DNA of 64,000 bases from Chloroflexota bacterium (GCA_016213135.1 JACRBQ010000117.1:1-64000), one strand, 5' to 3'; shown: positions 22,022 to 47,195, numbered from the stretch's first letter. The notes: generated by a model from the sequence alone, not told the origin. Program-made: numbers and translations.

Positions 22022-22214
22022 TGCTCAATGCTCAATTCACAAGGCACAAGGCACAACTAACCACCGACCACTAGTAGTCCGCCAATGTTAGAACGCTATG
22101 TAGCTTAGCCCCTTGTGCGCGTGCGCCGCCCACAAGGGGCTAGGCTACGACTATGCGATCCAAATTTGGTGAACTACTAGCCACTATCCACTGCCCACTA
22201 ACCACCGCCCACTG
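22012..22214. repeat. Heptamer array split by a MITE
   Basis: The left part (22012-22073) reads GAATGCT, CAATGCT twice, CAATTCA, CAAGGCA twice, CAACTAA, CCACCGA and CCACTA. The right part (22178-22214) reads TAG, CCACTAT, CCACTGC, CCACTAA, CCACCGC and CCACTGC. Joining them after removing the 108-bp element with one TA gives a continuous 7-bp phase of 14 units. The array lies between the response regulator and kinase genes and covers the kinase start. Confidence 0.9.
22072..22179 (+). mobile_element. MITE-like element, copy A (108 bp)
   Basis: Bounded by TAGTAGTCCGCCAA and the complement of TAGTAGTTCACCAA, an imperfect terminal inverted repeat. Inside, GTAGCTTAGCCCCTTGTG (22100-22117) pairs with 22131-22148 with one wobble. 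No coding capacity. Copy B at 45994-46101 is the same length, in reverse orientation, with 3 differences. The outermost TA is the target duplication, the pattern of IS630/Tc1-mariner-type elements, so it would need a transposase supplied from elsewhere. Confidence 0.88.
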
Positions 22215-40141: not shown

Positions 40142-42055
40142 ATGCGACGACTCACCCTCAAGATCAGTTCGGCGGCTATATTGTTGGCGCTGGTGCTTGC
40201 CATTGTCGGCGGCGTGTTGGCCCAAACCAAAACCGTCAACTGGCAGCGCTACGACGTGGACATCACCGTGCAGACCAACGGCGACCTGCGCGTAGTGGAA
40301 ACGCAGGAAATCCAATTCGTCGGCGGCACGTTCACCAGCGGCTTTGCCACCCTTCCGCTCAATCACACCGACGGCATCACCGACGTGAAGTTGTCGGAGT
40401 CGAACCGGCGCATCTACTTGCAAGACAACGGCGGCCCTTATTCGTATACCGTGTCCACCGACTCGACCAATGTCGCCATCGACTGGACGTTCCCGCCGCT
40501 GGCCGACGAAACCCGCACCTTCGTGCTGGAATACACCGTGCACGGCGCAGTGCGGCAATACGACTCGGGCGATAAACTGCAATACCTCGCCATCACCCGT
40601 GAACTGGAATTTCCCGTTTTCAAATCGATCATCACCGTTCACCTCCCGCTGGGCGGCCCCCTCATTGCCGACCCGGACTCGGCCGGGGCGCGTGTGGGCT
40701 ACAACACCGCCGCCGATAGCCTGGGGGTGACCTACTACAACACCGGGGTCATTCAACCGTACGAAGGCGTGGAACTCGGCCTCGTGTTCCAGCATGGCGC
40801 AGTCACCGGCCCCAGGCCCTCGTGGCAAGCCGATTACGACCGCCAGGCCACTTACGAAGACAAGGTCAAGCCCATGATTGACCTCGGGCTGGGGGCGCTG
40901 GCGCTGGGGTTGCTGGTGGCCGTGCCGGGCGCGCTCTACTTCATGTGGTATCTGTTCGGGCGCGACCCCGTTGCCGGGCTGGTTCCACAATACATCACCG
41001 ACCCGCCTTCGAATCTCCCGCCCGGATTGGCCGGGACGCTCATCGACGAGCGCGCCGATCTGCGGGATATTACGGCCACGCTGATCGACCTGGCGCGGCG
41101 CGGGTACGCCACGCTGGAGGCGCGCGAGTCGACCACCGTATTCGGCACGGCCTCGCGGTCGTACGTGCTCAAAAAGGCCGATGCTTCGGCCAAGCTGCGC
41201 GGCTACGAGCAAATGATTTACGACGCCGTGTTCGGCGGATTGAACGAGCGCACGCTCAACAAAATGCCCGACACGTTCTTCGACAAACTGGGCAGTATCG
41301 AGTCGGCCATGTATGCCGAAGGCGTGAAGGAAGGCATGTTCAAAGCCAATCCGGCCGCGGTGCGAACGCGCTATCAGGCCTCCGGCGGCTTCATCATGTT
41401 CTTCAGCGTCGTCGTCGGCTTCATTGCGGCGGTGGCCGCCAGCGGCCTTTCCGGATTCGTTGCCTGCCTGTTTGTGCCTTTCTTCCTGTTCGGCCTGGGG
41501 TTGATGGCGATGAGCGGGTCCATGCCGGTGAAGAGTCGCAAGGGCGCGACGGAGGCGGCCAAATGGCGAGCGTTCCAAAAGTATCTCGGCAACATCCAGC
41601 AGTACCGCGACGTGGCCGGGGCCACCGATCAGTTTGAGAAGTTCCTGCCCTATGCCATTGCGTTCGGGTTGGAGCAGCGCTGGGTGAATGCCTTTGCCAA
41701 AGCCCCCAACGTGGTGGTGCCTGCGCCCATTTGGTATCGGCCCATCTACATGGGCAACGTTCCCGGCGGAATGTCCGGGGGGCGGGCCGCAGTTCCCGGC
41801 GCACCCGGCGCGCCCATGCCCAACCTGAATGATATGGGCAGTGGGATGGTCGGCGGTCTCAATCAAATCGGCGAGGGCCTCATCGGCGCGCTCAACACGG
41901 CCGGGCGGTCGTTTGCTTCGCCGCCCACGCCCAAGTACACTTATAGCGGCGGGGGCAGCCGGGGCTTCAGCGGGGGCGGCGGGTTCCGCAGCAGCGGCGG
42001 CGGCAGTTTTCGGAGCGGCGGTTTCAGCGGCGGCGGTTCGCGCGGGTTCAGATAA
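40142..42055 (+). CDS. DUF2207 membrane protein
   Basis: 637 residues: signal peptide (VLAIVGGVLAQTKTVNW), an extracytoplasmic beta domain with the DUF2207 pattern (NWQRYDVDITVQTNGDLRVVETQEIQFVGGTFTSG in spaced strands), a membrane helix about 250-275, a cytoplasmic winged-helix-like part (LIDLARRGYATLEARE), two more helices near 420-460, and a Gly/Ser/Phe-rich tail (SGGGGFRSSGGGSF). The function of DUF2207 is unknown. It leads a four- to five-gene run with zinc-ribbon, helical and SPFH proteins. Confidence 0.88.
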   Translation: MRRLTLKISSAAILLALVLAIVGGVLAQTKTVNWQRYDVDITVQTNGDLRVVETQEIQFVGGTFTSGFATLPLNHTDGITDVKLSESNRRIYLQDNGGPYSYTVSTDSTNVAIDWTFPPLADETRTFVLEYTVHGAVRQYDSGDKLQYLAITRELEFPVFKSIITVHLPLGGPLIADPDSAGARVGYNTAADSLGVTYYNTGVIQPYEGVELGLVFQHGAVTGPRPSWQADYDRQATYEDKVKPMIDLGLGALALGLLVAVPGALYFMWYLFGRDPVAGLVPQYITDPPSNLPPGLAGTLIDERADLRDITATLIDLARRGYATLEARESTTVFGTASRSYVLKKADASAKLRGYEQMIYDAVFGGLNERTLNKMPDTFFDKLGSIESAMYAEGVKEGMFKANPAAVRTRYQASGGFIMFFSVVVGFIAAVAASGLSGFVACLFVPFFLFGLGLMAMSGSMPVKSRKGATEAAKWRAFQKYLGNIQQYRDVAGATDQFEKFLPYAIAFGLEQRWVNAFAKAPNVVVPAPIWYRPIYMGNVPGGMSGGRAAVPGAPGAPMPNLNDMGSGMVGGLNQIGEGLIGALNTAGRSFASPPTPKYTYSGGGSRGFSGGGGFRSSGGGSFRSGGFSGGGSRGFR

Positions 42056-42070
42056 GGATTGCAGGCGGCT

Positions 42071-42586
42071 ATGAAATCAGGTCAAGTTGCGGGCGTGTTG
42101 TTGGTGATCGGTGCGGGGGCGGTGGTGGTGATTGGGCTGGCCGTGCTGGGCGTGTTCTCGGCGGCGGGAGGGCTTACGGCGGCGGGCTTCGGCGTCGGCG
42201 TCATTCTGTTGGCAATCATTAGCCTGCCCTTGATCGGGGCGGGCGCATTCCTGCTTGCCAAGTCGCGGCAGGAGGGGCAGGATGAGGCCGTGGTGGCCAA
42301 GCAGCGCAAGATTTTGGATATGGTGTCGGCGCGCGGGCAGGTGAGCATTGCCGACGTGGCGCTGGAGTTGAAGGCCGGCCGCGACCAAGTGCAAAGTTGG
42401 GTGTACAATTTGGTGGGCTTGGGGCTGTTCAGCGGGTACATCAATTGGAATGATGGCACGCTTTACAGCGCGCAAGCCGCCCAGTTGCGCGACCTGACCA
42501 CCTGCAAGAAGTGCGGCGGGCAGGTGTCGCTGGCGGGCAAAGGGGTCATCAAGTGCCAGTATTGCGGCACCGAATACTTTTTATAG
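42071..42586 (+). CDS. Membrane protein with winged-helix and zinc ribbon
   Basis: 171 residues. Two N-terminal transmembrane helices (about 7-60), a cytoplasmic winged-helix-like stretch (KILDMVSARGQVSIADVALELKAG as spaced helices) and a C-terminal zinc ribbon with CKKCGG and CQYCGTEYF. No enzyme motif. I start at the ATG at 42071, 15 bases after DUF2207. Its layout recalls small accessory proteins of SPFH membrane-stress modules, but this is by analogy. Confidence 0.8.
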   Translation: MKSGQVAGVLLVIGAGAVVVIGLAVLGVFSAAGGLTAAGFGVGVILLAIISLPLIGAGAFLLAKSRQEGQDEAVVAKQRKILDMVSARGQVSIADVALELKAGRDQVQSWVYNLVGLGLFSGYINWNDGTLYSAQAAQLRDLTTCKKCGGQVSLAGKGVIKCQYCGTEYFL

Positions 42587-42595
42587 GAGCGAACA

Positions 42596-43108
42596 ATGAC
42601 CGATCTTTTTTCGAAAATCACCGGCTCGCAGAACTTGCTGGAGAAAATCGGCAGCAAGATACCGGGGTTTGGCGGGTATTTGCAGCGCGAGCAGCGGCGC
42701 ACCGCCGACAAAATGCTGCGGGACACGTGCGCGGCGCGGTATACGGAGCAGTGGGATCGCATCTCCGAAATTCAGCGGCGCATGATCAACGACGGCATGA
42801 TCGACCACGTAGACAACCTTGAGTCTGCCGCCATCAAACTGCGCACCTTCATCGACTCCATGAAGACTGCCTCCTACGGCTATTCGTCGTTCTTCGACGC
42901 GGTGAAGATCAACGAGGCGGAACTGGAGAAGCTTTATTCTTACGACAACGCTTTGCTGGAAGGCGTGAGCAAGGTGGCTGCGGCTATTGACAATGTGGAG
43001 GCCTCGCTCGGCAGCGACGGGCTGCCCGCCGCCATGCGCAACCTCACCAGCACCTGCGCCGACTGTGTGACCGCTTTTGATCGGCGCAAGGACGTGTTGA
43101 CGGCATAA
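42596..43108 (+). CDS. Helical hypothetical protein in SPFH cluster
   Basis: 170 residues, fully helical, no membrane segment, a preceding AGGAGCGA site, starting MTDLFSKITG. Heptad-like hydrophobic spacing is visible in the middle (ESAAIKLRTFIDSMKTA) and a single CADC lies near the end. I do not recognise it. It occupies the position of PspA-like coiled-coil proteins in other SPFH operons, but length and sequence do not match PspA. Confidence 0.75.
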   Translation: MTDLFSKITGSQNLLEKIGSKIPGFGGYLQREQRRTADKMLRDTCAARYTEQWDRISEIQRRMINDGMIDHVDNLESAAIKLRTFIDSMKTASYGYSSFFDAVKINEAELEKLYSYDNALLEGVSKVAAAIDNVEASLGSDGLPAAMRNLTSTCADCVTAFDRRKDVLTA

Positions 43109-43119
43109 CTTCGTTGTTC

Positions 43120-43165
43120 CCTGTGGTTCCGGCGCCCCGGGCGCCTGGAAAACCCAGGCATACTA
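43120..43165. repeat. Small hairpins before SPFH gene
   Basis: GGCGCC ... GGCGCC followed by GCCTGG-AAAAC-CCAGGC makes two adjacent stems in the 77-base gap before the SPFH gene. There is no T-tract, so it is not a simple terminator. Confidence 0.45.
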
Positions 43166-43185
43166 GAAAACTCTGGAGGACACCC

Positions 43186-44250
43186 ATGGCTCGCATTTTT
43201 GATGTGATCGAATATCCCGATGAAATGCGGAATGAGATCGTGCACCGCTTTCCCGAGAGCGGGGCGGGCGATTTTCAAATCGGCTCGCAGGTGATCGTTC
43301 GCGAAAGCCAGAACGCGGTTTTCTTCCGCGATGGCCGCGCCCTCGACACCTTCACACCGGGGCGGCATACCATCACCACGGCCAACATCCCGTACGTTCG
43401 CGATTTTATTGGCCGCGCCTTCAACGAGCGCTCGCCCTTCACGGCGGAAGTGTATTTCGTGGCCGTCCGCGAGTTCGCCGACCAGAAATGGGGCACGCCG
43501 CAGCCCATCATCGTCAAGAACGCCGGCGTGGGTCTGGGCGTGGCGCTGTTGCAGGCCTTCGGCTCCTATTCGTTTCAGGTCAGCAACCCGCAGCAGTTCG
43601 TGGCCCAGATTGTGGGCGCGCAGGGCGCGTACACCACTTCGGACATTCAGGGGCGGTTCCGCTCCATGATTTTGTCCAAGGTGCAGGATTTGCTAGGCGA
43701 ACTCGGCACCAAACAGGGCAAGTCGGTGCTGGATTTGATTGGCCTGACCGAGGAAATCGGGGCCGGGGTGCGGGCTAAAGCGCAGGATGACTTCCGGGCC
43801 ATCGGCATCACGCTGAAGTCGTTCTACATCGAGAGCATCAAGCCCTCGTCCAAATCCGCCGAGGAGTTGCGGGCCATGGGCATGCTGGACATGCAGACCT
43901 ACATGCAGCTGCAGGCCGCCGACGCCATGCGCGATGCGGCGCAGAACCCCGGGGGCGGCGCAGGCCTCACCGCGGGCATTGGCGCCGGGTTGGGCATCGG
44001 CAACATTATGGGCCAGGCCTTCCAGGGCGGTATGCAACCGCCGCAACCGGCCGGAGGGCCACAAGCGCCCACGCCGCCGGCTGCCGGCCCCACGCCCGAA
44101 GTGATGAGCCCGGCGCAGGCCGCTACCTACCTTGGGGTTGCCGAGGCCGATGTAGTGAAGATGATCGCCGACGGCCAAATCAAAGCCAAGCAGATCGGCA
44201 GCCAATATAAGATTGCCAAGAAAGTGCTCGACGACTTCCTGGCTTCGTAA
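43186..44250 (+). CDS. SPFH domain protein with C-terminal helix-turn-helix
   Basis: 354 residues. The first 220 form an SPFH/band-7 domain of the YdjI-like type (IGSQVIVRESQNAVFFRDGRALDTFTPGRHTI as separate strands; SMILSKVQDLLGEL; IGITLKSFYIESIKPS). A Gly/Pro-rich linker (about 245-305) leads to an excisionase-type helix-turn-helix (VMSPAQAATYLGVAEADVVKMIADGQIKAKQIG in two helices). The SPFH part should oligomerise at the membrane; the small domain could bind DNA or a protein. The ATG at 43186 follows GGAGGA. This combination is worth a note. Confidence 0.88.
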   Translation: MARIFDVIEYPDEMRNEIVHRFPESGAGDFQIGSQVIVRESQNAVFFRDGRALDTFTPGRHTITTANIPYVRDFIGRAFNERSPFTAEVYFVAVREFADQKWGTPQPIIVKNAGVGLGVALLQAFGSYSFQVSNPQQFVAQIVGAQGAYTTSDIQGRFRSMILSKVQDLLGELGTKQGKSVLDLIGLTEEIGAGVRAKAQDDFRAIGITLKSFYIESIKPSSKSAEELRAMGMLDMQTYMQLQAADAMRDAAQNPGGGAGLTAGIGAGLGIGNIMGQAFQGGMQPPQPAGGPQAPTPPAAGPTPEVMSPAQAATYLGVAEADVVKMIADGQIKAKQIGSQYKIAKKVLDDFLAS

Positions 44251-44280
44251 CCGTGTCCCTTCGGACCTTCATCAATGCGC

Positions 44281-44309
44281 GCGCTCCGGGCTAATGTTGC
44301 CCGGGGCGC
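44281..44309 (+). other. Hairpin between SPFH and NYN genes
   Basis: GCGCTCCGGGC (44281-44291) pairs with GCCCGGGGCGC (44299-44309), 11 bp with one wobble. A weak T-rich stretch follows after about 5 bases. It may attenuate read-through into the NYN gene. Confidence 0.5.
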
Positions 44310-44334
44310 GGCGTTGTTTCAGGAGACGCCGCGT

Positions 44335-45996
44335 ATGCCGACCACTGCCGCCACGCCCATTCGCTCCGCGCTGTTTGTCGATTTCGACAATATCTACATC
44401 AACCTGCTGAACCTTGAAAACAATGTCGCCATGCAATTCGCCTCCAACCCGGACCGGTGGCTGGACTGGCTCATTGCGCAGATGCCCGTGGACCACATGG
44501 GCGCCGAAGGCTCCACCCGCCGCGTGCTGATCCGCAAGTGCTACCTCAACCCCGAGTCCTTCCGCACCTACCGGCCGTTTTTCATCCGCGCCGCATTTGA
44601 AGTGGTGGATTGCCCGCCGCTCACCGCTCGCGGCAAAACCAGCACCGACATCCACATGGTGATGGACATTCTCGACGCTTTGAACCACCCGACGGATTTC
44701 AACGAGTTTATCATTTTGTCGGGCGACGCTGATTTTACGCCGGTGCTTTTGCGCTTGCGCAAGCATGACCGCCGCAGTGTGGTGGTGTCCACCGGCTACA
44801 TCTCCCCGGCCTATAAAGCGGCCTGCGACTTTCTGGTGACGCAGGATACGTTTGTCAACGAGGCCCTGGGTGTGGTGTTGGCCGAAGAGGAGGCCAACGG
44901 CTACCACGACGAGGGCGAGGCCCCCCTGGCCCCGACGGCGCTGCTGGGCAGGATGGCCGCGCGGTTGCACGACGTGGCCCAGGCCCCCGAGGGTATATTG
45001 GCGAACGAGCTGCCCGGGGCATACAAAGAGTTCCCGGAATTCAGGCAAAGCAATCATTGGCTGGGCTACTACTCGCTGCGGAGGCTTACGGAAGCCGTGG
45101 TGGCGCAGCGCAGTGATCTGGCGATTGTGGAGGAAGATCCGTGGCGGGTGGCTGCCGTCGACAATAGCCGGGCAATGCCGGTGGAATTGAGCGCCGCCCA
45201 AAGCGCGCCAACCGATGAAGAACCAACCGCCGAGGGCGAGCCGCCCGCGCCGGCTGAGTTCGGCTCCGACGACGATGATAAGGTGAAGCTGGCCATTGCC
45301 GCCGCTGTGCAAGCGATCGTGACCGAGTCGAGCGGGGCCGTTCCCATGGCTACTCTGGCGCAGGCTGTGAACAGGCGCTTTGCCGATAGGCTCTCGCACA
45401 CAGACTGGCTTGGGACGGGGTCATTCAAGGGTTTGCTGGAATCGCTGGATTTGGGCGAGATTGAAATATCCACGGCCATGTCGGGGTCGGTGTATGACCC
45501 GCGGATTCACAGCCGGCCCAGCGGCGCGCCCGGGCGCGACCCGGCCCAATCGCGCGCGGCAGACGACGCGCCGCTGAGCGCGTTCGCGGCCCGGTATGCC
45601 GACCTGGCGCCGCTGGCGCGAAAGATTCACCAACTCACCGACACGCCGTATCTCATGCCGGAACACTATGCCCTGCTGCTGCGCGAGCTGGCGCGGGAGA
45701 TTAGCGAGCGCGGCTACCAAATGACCCGCACGTCGCGCACGGTTCGCGATCGCTGCGTGGAAAAAGGAGCGCCGATCGCGCGCGCTCACGTGAATTTTGT
45801 GCTGACGGGAATTTATTACGCCGGATACCGGTTTGGGGTGAACCTGCCTGAAACCCCGGAGCGGCTAGGCGACGTGCTGGTGAACAACACGATCAACCTG
45901 TGCCGCACCGCGCAAATGCCGGTGGGCGAAACCGAGGCGGCTCAAATCCGGAATTGGATTGTGGGCGCGCTAAGCAACGGTAACGGAGGCGGTTAG
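44335..45996 (+). CDS. NYN-domain nuclease with LOTUS/OST-HTH domains
   Basis: 553 residues. The N-terminal NYN (PIN-like) domain has ALFVDFDNIYINLL, TDIHMVMDILDAL, FIILSGDADFTPVLLRLRKHD and VVVSTGY, with the acidic residues that hold the metal. Two regions then look like OST-HTH/LOTUS RNA-binding domains, at about 205-285 and about 320-385 (LAQAVNRRFADRLSHTDW ... FKGLLESLDLG), and a third helical domain ends the protein. It would cut or bind RNA. The start follows AGGAGAC. The TAG stop lies at the edge of MITE copy B. Confidence 0.9.
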   Translation: MPTTAATPIRSALFVDFDNIYINLLNLENNVAMQFASNPDRWLDWLIAQMPVDHMGAEGSTRRVLIRKCYLNPESFRTYRPFFIRAAFEVVDCPPLTARGKTSTDIHMVMDILDALNHPTDFNEFIILSGDADFTPVLLRLRKHDRRSVVVSTGYISPAYKAACDFLVTQDTFVNEALGVVLAEEEANGYHDEGEAPLAPTALLGRMAARLHDVAQAPEGILANELPGAYKEFPEFRQSNHWLGYYSLRRLTEAVVAQRSDLAIVEEDPWRVAAVDNSRAMPVELSAAQSAPTDEEPTAEGEPPAPAEFGSDDDDKVKLAIAAAVQAIVTESSGAVPMATLAQAVNRRFADRLSHTDWLGTGSFKGLLESLDLGEIEISTAMSGSVYDPRIHSRPSGAPGRDPAQSRAADDAPLSAFAARYADLAPLARKIHQLTDTPYLMPEHYALLLRELAREISERGYQMTRTSRTVRDRCVEKGAPIARAHVNFVLTGIYYAGYRFGVNLPETPERLGDVLVNNTINLCRTAQMPVGETEAAQIRNWIVGALSNGNGGG

Positions 45997-46101
45997 TAGT
46001 TCACCAAGTTTGGATCGCATAGTCGTAGCCTAGCCCCTTGTGGGCGGCGCACGCGCACAAGGCGCTAAGCTACACAGCGTTCTAACATTGGCGGACTACT
46101 A
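45994..46101 (-). mobile_element. MITE-like element, copy B (108 bp)
   Basis: Reverse-orientation copy of 22072-22179 with 3 differences. It fills almost all of the gap between two convergent genes. Its outer TA belongs to the NYN stop codon TAG. Removing the element with one TA leaves GGT-TAG-C-CTA, so the two convergent stop codons were only one base apart before insertion and neither protein was changed. Confidence 0.88.
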
Positions 46102-46103
46102 GC

Positions 46104-47195
46104 CTATTCCAGCGCCGTCGCGGCCTGCCTCACGGCGGTGCATACGGCATCCACTTCGGCAGCAGTCAACTCCGGGTACATGGGCAGGCACAGCAGGTCT
46201 TTGGCAAACTGCTCGGTTACCGGCAGGCTGAGGGGCGGCGAGTCGGCGTAGGCGGGTTGCAGGTGAATAGGCACGGGGTACAGCACCGATGCGCCCACCC
46301 CGAGCGCCGCGAGCGCGTCACGGAGCGCATCGCGTTTGGGATGGCGAATGGTGTACTGGTGATATACGCCGCCCGTCGGCGGCAGCCGCACGCCCGGCAA
46401 GTCCGCAAAAGCCGCGTTGTATGTATCGGCGATGTACATGCGGCGGGCGTTGTCGGCGTCGAGGTGGCGCAGCTTGACCCGCAAAATGGCCGCCTGCAAT
46501 TCGTCGAGGCGGCTGTTGCTGCCGTGAATCTCGGACACGTATCGCGTGCGCCAGCCGTACATCCTCAATAGCCGGACGCGCGCGGCGATGTCGTCTGAAT
46601 CGGTGACGACCGCGCCGCCGTCGCCCAATGCCCCCAGATTCTTCGTCGGATAAAAACTGAAGGCCGCGGCTGCGCCCAACGACCCCACGCGCCGCCCCAG
46701 CGCCATCGCGCCGTGGGCCTGAGCGCAATCCTCGATCACGGTGGCTTGCCGCTCGGCAGCCAACCGCAAAATAGCTTCCATGCGCGCCGGGTGGCCGTAA
46801 AGATGAACCGGCACAACGAACATGCCGGGAGCAGTGAGCGCGGCTTCGAGGGCGGCGGGGTCGAGCGTGTATTCGTCCGGCAGGATGTCGAGCAGGAGCG
46901 GCTGCCAGCCCGCTTCGGTGATGGCCGCCACCGTGGCCGTGGCCGACATGGACACGGTGACGCCTTCCGCGCCGCGAAAGGGCACGGCGGCTTGCACGGC
47001 CAGCCGCACGGCGTCGGTGCCGTTGGCAACGCCCACGCAATGCTTCACCCCGATGTAGGCGGCGAACTCGGCCTCGAACGCTTCCACCTCCGGGCCGAGT
47101 ATGTACCAGCCCGAGGCCGTGGCTCGGCGGATGGCGTCGTCGATCTCGGTTTGATGTGCGCGGTACGAGGCGAGGGGATTGGCAGTGGCTATCAT
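46104..47195 (-). CDS. DegT/DnrJ/EryC1/StrS sugar aminotransferase
   Basis: 363 residues of a PLP sugar aminotransferase: AEFAAYIGVKHCVGVANGTDAVRLAV, EDCAQAHGA, the PLP lysine in SFYPTKNLGALGDGGAVVT and LDELQAAILRVKL. It would aminate a nucleotide-linked keto sugar for surface glycans. A glycosyltransferase lies 9 bases upstream, supporting a glycan role. It converges on the NYN gene with a MITE between. Confidence 0.92.
   Translation of the reverse strand: MIATANPLASYRAHQTEIDDAIRRATASGWYILGPEVEAFEAEFAAYIGVKHCVGVANGTDAVRLAVQAAVPFRGAEGVTVSMSATATVAAITEAGWQPLLLDILPDEYTLDPAALEAALTAPGMFVVPVHLYGHPARMEAILRLAAERQATVIEDCAQAHGAMALGRRVGSLGAAAAFSFYPTKNLGALGDGGAVVTDSDDIAARVRLLRMYGWRTRYVSEIHGSNSRLDELQAAILRVKLRHLDADNARRMYIADTYNAAFADLPGVRLPPTGGVYHQYTIRHPKRDALRDALAALGVGASVLYPVPIHLQPAYADSPPLSLPVTEQFAKDLLCLPMYPELTAAEVDAVCTAVRQAATALE

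Follow-up and report, generated by a model that had tools for sequence, protein, structure and literature searches.

Five genes lie on one strand between positions 40142 and 45996 of the window (the whole 64,000-nucleotide stretch analysed, from a Chloroflexota genome, GCA_016213135.1, of the order Anaerolineales), and the question raised by this arrangement is whether they constitute a single pathway. A preliminary description of the locus grouped all five and proposed that they could link membrane state to RNA decay, with the SPFH envelope-stress operons of Bacillus as an analogy. All five open reading frames are present, and the comparisons below support the analogy for the first four; the grouping of the fifth gene with them does not survive.

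Proteins encoded by the first four genes

The first gene (40142-42055, plus strand, as for all genes of the run) encodes a membrane protein with DUF2207, a widespread domain of unknown function, and was characterized by Pfam, hydropathy and a comparison of orthologue tails. The N- and C-terminal DUF2207 domains match PF09972 (2.7e-20, 73.7 bits) and PF20990 (4e-39, 135.2 bits), both above the gathering score. Hydropathy predicts a signal or transmembrane segment at residues 3-32, an extracytoplasmic domain, and hydrophobic segments at approximately 242-273 and 411-461; the tail of the protein is rich in Gly, Ser and Phe, and a Gly-rich tail is retained in five orthologues. The second gene (42071-42586) was assigned from alignment, weak Pfam matches and synteny as a membrane protein with a putative winged helix and zinc ribbon. 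Two hydrophobic segments precede its cysteine pairs, a winged-helix-like region spans approximately residues 79-133, and a CxxC...CxxC ribbon lies at 145-165, with both CxxC pairs invariant in the orthologue alignment. Across the gene run, DUF2207, Band_7_1, HTH_17 and NYN are found by Pfam, whereas the second protein gives sub-threshold matches only for its winged helix (PCI, 0.004) and its zinc ribbon (RPAB4 zinc ribbon, 0.006).

The third gene (42596-43108) encodes a soluble helical-bundle protein of 170 residues, designated HEL, which was analysed by NCBIfam, AlphaFold2 and alignment. HEL has no Pfam family and no membrane segment predicted from hydropathy. Its nearly full-length match to NCBIfam NF047596 (LIMLP_15305, from Leptospira; E 1.4e-12, 47.8 bits) does not reach the cut-off of 210 bits, which is likewise reached by none of 18 related Chloroflexota matches, and HEL is best regarded as only a distant relative of the LIMLP_15305 family. 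The relatives of HEL come from Anaerolineales, Anaerolineaceae, Anaerolineae and Chloroflexi genomes, and an alignment of 32 sequences reveals a conserved PGFxGY motif. The AlphaFold2 model is a helical bundle (pLDDT 85.7, pTM 0.80) with no clear structural match by Foldseek (best E 0.065) or VIA-align (best Z 13.5, to IncA); these best matches fall in the range of unrelated helical bundles. No PspA or ESCRT-III chain is present among the structure matches listed, which excludes nothing, and a relationship between HEL and PspA was considered and rejected at an hhalign probability of 0.2%.

The fourth gene (43186-44250), characterized by Pfam and hydropathy, encodes an SPFH protein of the Band_7_1, YdjI type (PF13421, 5.8e-47) in which no hydrophobic or transmembrane segment is predicted. 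Its C-terminus carries an HTH_17 module (44104-44244; PF12728, 4.4e-9, above the cut-off), identified by Pfam and by orthologue profiles. A search of PDB sequences with HEL and the SPFH protein returned no match, no TPM domain is matched by Pfam in any of the four genes, and we found no literature on DUF2207 together with SPFH or on Band_7_1 together with HTH_17. A hairpin-forming sequence is also present between the HEL and SPFH genes (43127-43160; fold z -2.1) and could function in processing or attenuation.

Conservation and extent of the operon

Conservation was assessed in 60 related genomes together with the genome of the window (61 in total). The SPFH gene is present in 54 of the 61 genomes and the HEL gene in 52, and the two adjoin in most. 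Synteny was counted at distinct loci with enough flanking DNA, and loci outside the order were obtained through carriers of the NYN gene and by a HEL-profile search of 400 genomes (60 positive). The SPFH gene lies directly 3' of the HEL gene on the same strand at 83 of 104 loci within the order and at 28 of 32 in other Chloroflexota orders or classes. The winged-helix/zinc-ribbon gene is directly upstream of the HEL gene at 6/102 loci within the order and 21/28 outside it, and DUF2207 is found upstream at 6/92 and 16/25, respectively. These counts define HEL-SPFH as the core and the addition of DUF2207 and the winged-helix gene as a fuller form, which is kept in the genus of the window's genome (DUF2207, winged-helix/zinc-ribbon, HEL and SPFH genes in order in genus-mates G002 and G004), in one further family of the order (f9), in one further metagenome-assembled genome and in most groups outside the order. 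The four genes occur together in the same order and on the same strand across several Chloroflexota classes, and the gaps within the cassette are short, with medians of 30-41 bases. It is thus very probable, as judged from gene order, that DUF2207, the winged-helix/zinc-ribbon protein, HEL and SPFH-HTH form one functional unit. Because DUF2207 and the winged-helix gene are mostly away from the HEL-SPFH core within the order, this core pair must sometimes act alone or with distant copies.

Several variants of the arrangement were also observed. HEL and SPFH are both present in family f11 but lie 5-32 kb apart, two cassettes (L246 and L252) contain two tandem DUF2207 genes upstream of the winged-helix gene, and at three loci (L239, L240 and L250) a distant HEL homologue has no SPFH gene in its vicinity. 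At L239 and L240, the HEL homologue precedes one conserved gene pair, which by eye appears DUF1015-like and NrpR-like. A TlyA gene upstream of the operon in the window was considered as a further member and rejected, as it is not found upstream in the genus-mates.

The 3' end of the unit is marked by a stem-loop identified by folding at 44280-44310 (12 bp, 11 of them G-C pairs), in which the stem is strong and the T run is weaker. Downstream of the SPFH stop codon, the sequence folds much better than shuffled controls both in the window and in most of the 12 relatives compared, several of which have a textbook stem followed by a T run. The stem-loop is likely an operon-ending terminator, and it separates the fourth gene from the fifth, a NYN-domain gene (44335-45996, ATG at 44335) that starts 3' of it and lies outside the conserved operon.

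The proposal that all five genes form one pathway, in which the NYN nuclease would couple membrane state to RNA decay, draws on their common strand and on a gap of only 84 bases between SPFH and NYN in the window. The preliminary description had named a lack of conservation of NYN beside SPFH in relatives as what would refute it, and this neighbourhood is kept in no relative examined. Clear NYN orthologues are present in 4 of the 61 genomes, namely that of the window and G025, G026 and G033, and in the latter three the gene is on a different contig from SPFH. In the genus-mates G002 and G004, from which NYN is absent, SPFH is directly followed instead by a gene for a 196-residue zinc-ribbon membrane protein with a hydrophobic C-terminal part (L052:6298-6888 and L053:6242-6829), shortly after which lies the DegT aminotransferase gene that is also present in the window; the position of NYN is thus taken by another gene in relatives. 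Within the same class, NYN orthologues are common in family f29, where their neighbours are ileS or a DNA polymerase IV-type gene and where they coexist with the full cassette at different places; other contexts are seen elsewhere. The only case within 8 kb outside the order (at L240) was rejected, as this is a different, LabA-like NYN gene on the strand opposite HEL. Bacterial NYN/OST-HTH nucleases have been reported without conserved neighbourhoods (PMC2848206). With the intervening hairpin and the lack of adjacency, membership of NYN in the operon was rejected, the five-gene pathway is highly improbable, and the gene is best described as a separate, standalone RNase gene.

A swappable module on the SPFH protein and the proposed function of the operon

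The preliminary description considered the C-terminus of the SPFH protein to be an excisionase-type HTH. The HTH_17 assignment holds, but the module is one of several that are exchanged at this position. Profiles assign the C-termini of 115 SPFH orthologues to HTH_17 (91), double zinc ribbons (4), another type (1) and a SHOCT-like class (19), the last comprising 18 labelled by profile, for most of which the label reflects mutual similarity with tails below the Pfam cut-offs in those scanned, and L254, in which Pfam identifies SHOCT. Pfam also confirms double zinc ribbons in L236, L238 and L247 and HTH_17 in L237 and L248. In the tree of the SPFH domain, the module labels require 6 changes, an exact number that is not secure because several rows are on long branches; L247 (zinc ribbon) and L254 (SHOCT), from one family, are sisters at 99%. 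Since at least three kinds of module replace one another at this C-terminus, HTH_17 is probably an adaptor. The recognition helix of the HTH forms starts with acidic residues (E in 85/91, E in 72/91 and D in 90/91), whereas HPTTLRRW stands at this position in a canonical HTH_17 encoded elsewhere in the genome, and the wing is basic, with K26, K/R28, K29 and R35 of the module nearly invariant. On these features an adaptor is more probable than a DNA reader, although the module may bind DNA. SHOCT is most often fused to the PF13421 family, and the known Band_7_1 SPFH-SHOCT proteins resemble the present ones in joining this SPFH family to a short C-terminal helical module (PMC3581485). The present case differs in that three kinds of module are swapped among orthologues of one conserved operon and that HTH_17 dominates in the order. 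This natural exchange, in which a single protein carries an HTH, a SHOCT-like or a zinc-ribbon module, offers a handle on the function of SHOCT.

Envelope-stress repair has been studied largely through PspA. PspA (PF04012, PspA/IM30) is absent from the operon and is encoded in 5 of the 61 genomes, versus 52 for HEL; the genome of the window has a PspA gene on another contig (G000:C52:19732-20340, L224), beside genes for zinc-ribbon proteins and a SHOCT-like protein. In B. subtilis, the soluble Band_7_1 SPFH protein YdjI depends on two membrane proteins of its operon, YdjG and YdjH, for reaching the membrane, and YdjI in turn recruits PspA (PMC8581546). The pspA-ydjGHI operon and the cassette both combine a soluble Band_7_1 SPFH protein with two membrane proteins, one of which has a low-complexity tail, and a helical protein, and the SPFH-zinc-ribbon architecture of YdjI recurs in some SPFH orthologues of the cassette. 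In the cassette, however, HEL is encoded instead of PspA, DUF2207 instead of the TPM protein YdjH and the winged-helix/zinc-ribbon protein instead of the zinc-ribbon/NTF2-like YdjG, and most of the SPFH proteins carry HTH_17 or SHOCT-like modules. PSP systems with band-7, CesT/Tir, TPM and SHOCT domains similarly unite band-7 proteins, membrane sensors and helical proteins, but the cassette lacks PspA, and DUF2207 is not named in the PSP survey (PMC11237479).

By analogy with the Bacillus system, we favour, with the balance tipped slightly towards it, a reading in which the four-gene operon specifies an SPFH scaffold at the membrane surface that works like PspA-YdjGHI, with HEL as its partner. 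The DUF2207 protein would sense envelope conditions on the outer side of the membrane and, together with the winged-helix/zinc-ribbon protein, would recruit the oligomeric SPFH protein to the inner membrane face, as YdjG and YdjH recruit YdjI. HEL would be a helical partner positioned by SPFH, in the place that PspA has in Bacillus, and the short C-terminal module may be an interchangeable docking part that connects SPFH either to its membrane partners or to adjacent SPFH subunits. Under stress, the system may stabilise the membrane or assist the assembly of membrane proteins. Since HEL has neither a detectable relationship to PspA nor a clear structural match, its assignment to the place of PspA is drawn from position and distribution. 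Against this reading stand the usual separation of DUF2207 and the winged-helix gene from HEL-SPFH within the order, the distance between HEL and SPFH in family f11 and the PspA gene carried by the genome of the window. The stronger form of this reading, a PspA-independent membrane surveillance in which HEL does the job of PspA and the swapped adaptor reveals the HTH as a protein-docking part, is put forward only tentatively. If true, it would represent a second solution to envelope-stress repair, with an uncharacterised helical partner, in a branch of the phylum mostly without PspA, and DUF2207 would gain a concrete pathway.

The same four genes could alternatively encode a membrane-tethered transcription factor, held by DUF2207 and the winged-helix protein, whose HTH regulates genes under envelope stress. 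The Pfam-level HTH_17 match kept in 91 orthologues, the nearly invariant basic residues of the wing region and the possible winged helix in the second protein are consistent with such a role, but orthologues exchange the HTH for SHOCT-like or zinc-ribbon modules while the rest of the operon is kept, and the acidic start of the recognition helix departs from the canonical HTH_17 of the same genome, which makes a transcription factor unlikely. Another explanation is that SPFH and HEL form a chaperone-like cage, comparable to HflKC or prohibitin, for membrane-protein quality control or respiratory-complex assembly and are not a stress sensor. The near-universal presence of SPFH in the order (54/61) fits such a housekeeping role, and the TPM and band-7 domains linked to PSP systems have been proposed as assembly chaperones (PMC11237479); however, no gene outside the cassette was seen to recur alongside it in the gene orders read, in which the flanking genes are not all named, and in Bacillus the YdjI type of SPFH protein is linked with PspA. 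We give this explanation, too, a rather low probability. A defence role was considered and rejected, as PADLOC returned only partial matches at the locus (E 0.003-0.02) and no match to a model of an anti-phage system.

The NYN protein and its downstream palindrome

Although placed outside the operon, the NYN protein has a domain organisation of its own interest, as indicated by Pfam and a structure model. ROQ is the stem-loop RNA-binding domain of Roquin, a eukaryotic mRNA-decay factor, and it is the closest structural counterpart listed for the C-terminal part of the protein. The N-terminal NYN domain matches PF01936 (6.4e-17), and at least six Asp residues are invariant in 17 orthologues; the protein thus has the NYN-type nuclease domain with an acidic active site that is a feature of bacterial NYN/OST-HTH proteins (LK-nucleases). 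In the AlphaFold2 model (pLDDT 77), the NYN fold has its top structure matches in 2qip (Z 17.2) and MARF1 (Z 16.1 and 15.7). The NYN domain is followed by two winged-helix-like units (residues 202-275 and 313-388), a part of the model that the whole-model structure search hardly tests. OST-HTH/LOTUS has no Pfam match in any of the 17 orthologues, and LOTUS domains are plausible because the model contains these two units. For the C-terminal domain (approximately 425-542), the only matches listed are the ROQ domains of Roquin-1 and Roquin-2 (Z 10.2-11.0 over 114-119 residues, 2.4-2.9 angstrom); Foldseek gives the ROQ match a probability of 1.00 but an E of 0.13-0.16, and sequence searches, including Pfam on the orthologues, show nothing of a ROQ-like domain. 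The predicted succession of a NYN domain, two winged-helix units and a ROQ-like domain suggests a bacterial structure-guided endoribonuclease directed to stem-loops.

The NYN gene is followed by a near-perfect palindrome of 109 bp at 45994-46106, which is also found at 22071-22179 (MFE -67.8 kcal/mol, z -9.6). About 20 copies, with 90-99% identity, are present in the genome of the window, and from its sequence the element is classed as MITE- or REP-like. At 45994-46106, the convergent NYN and DegT genes take their stop codons from the two ends of the palindrome, and several of the remaining copies likewise border a gene end at TAG.
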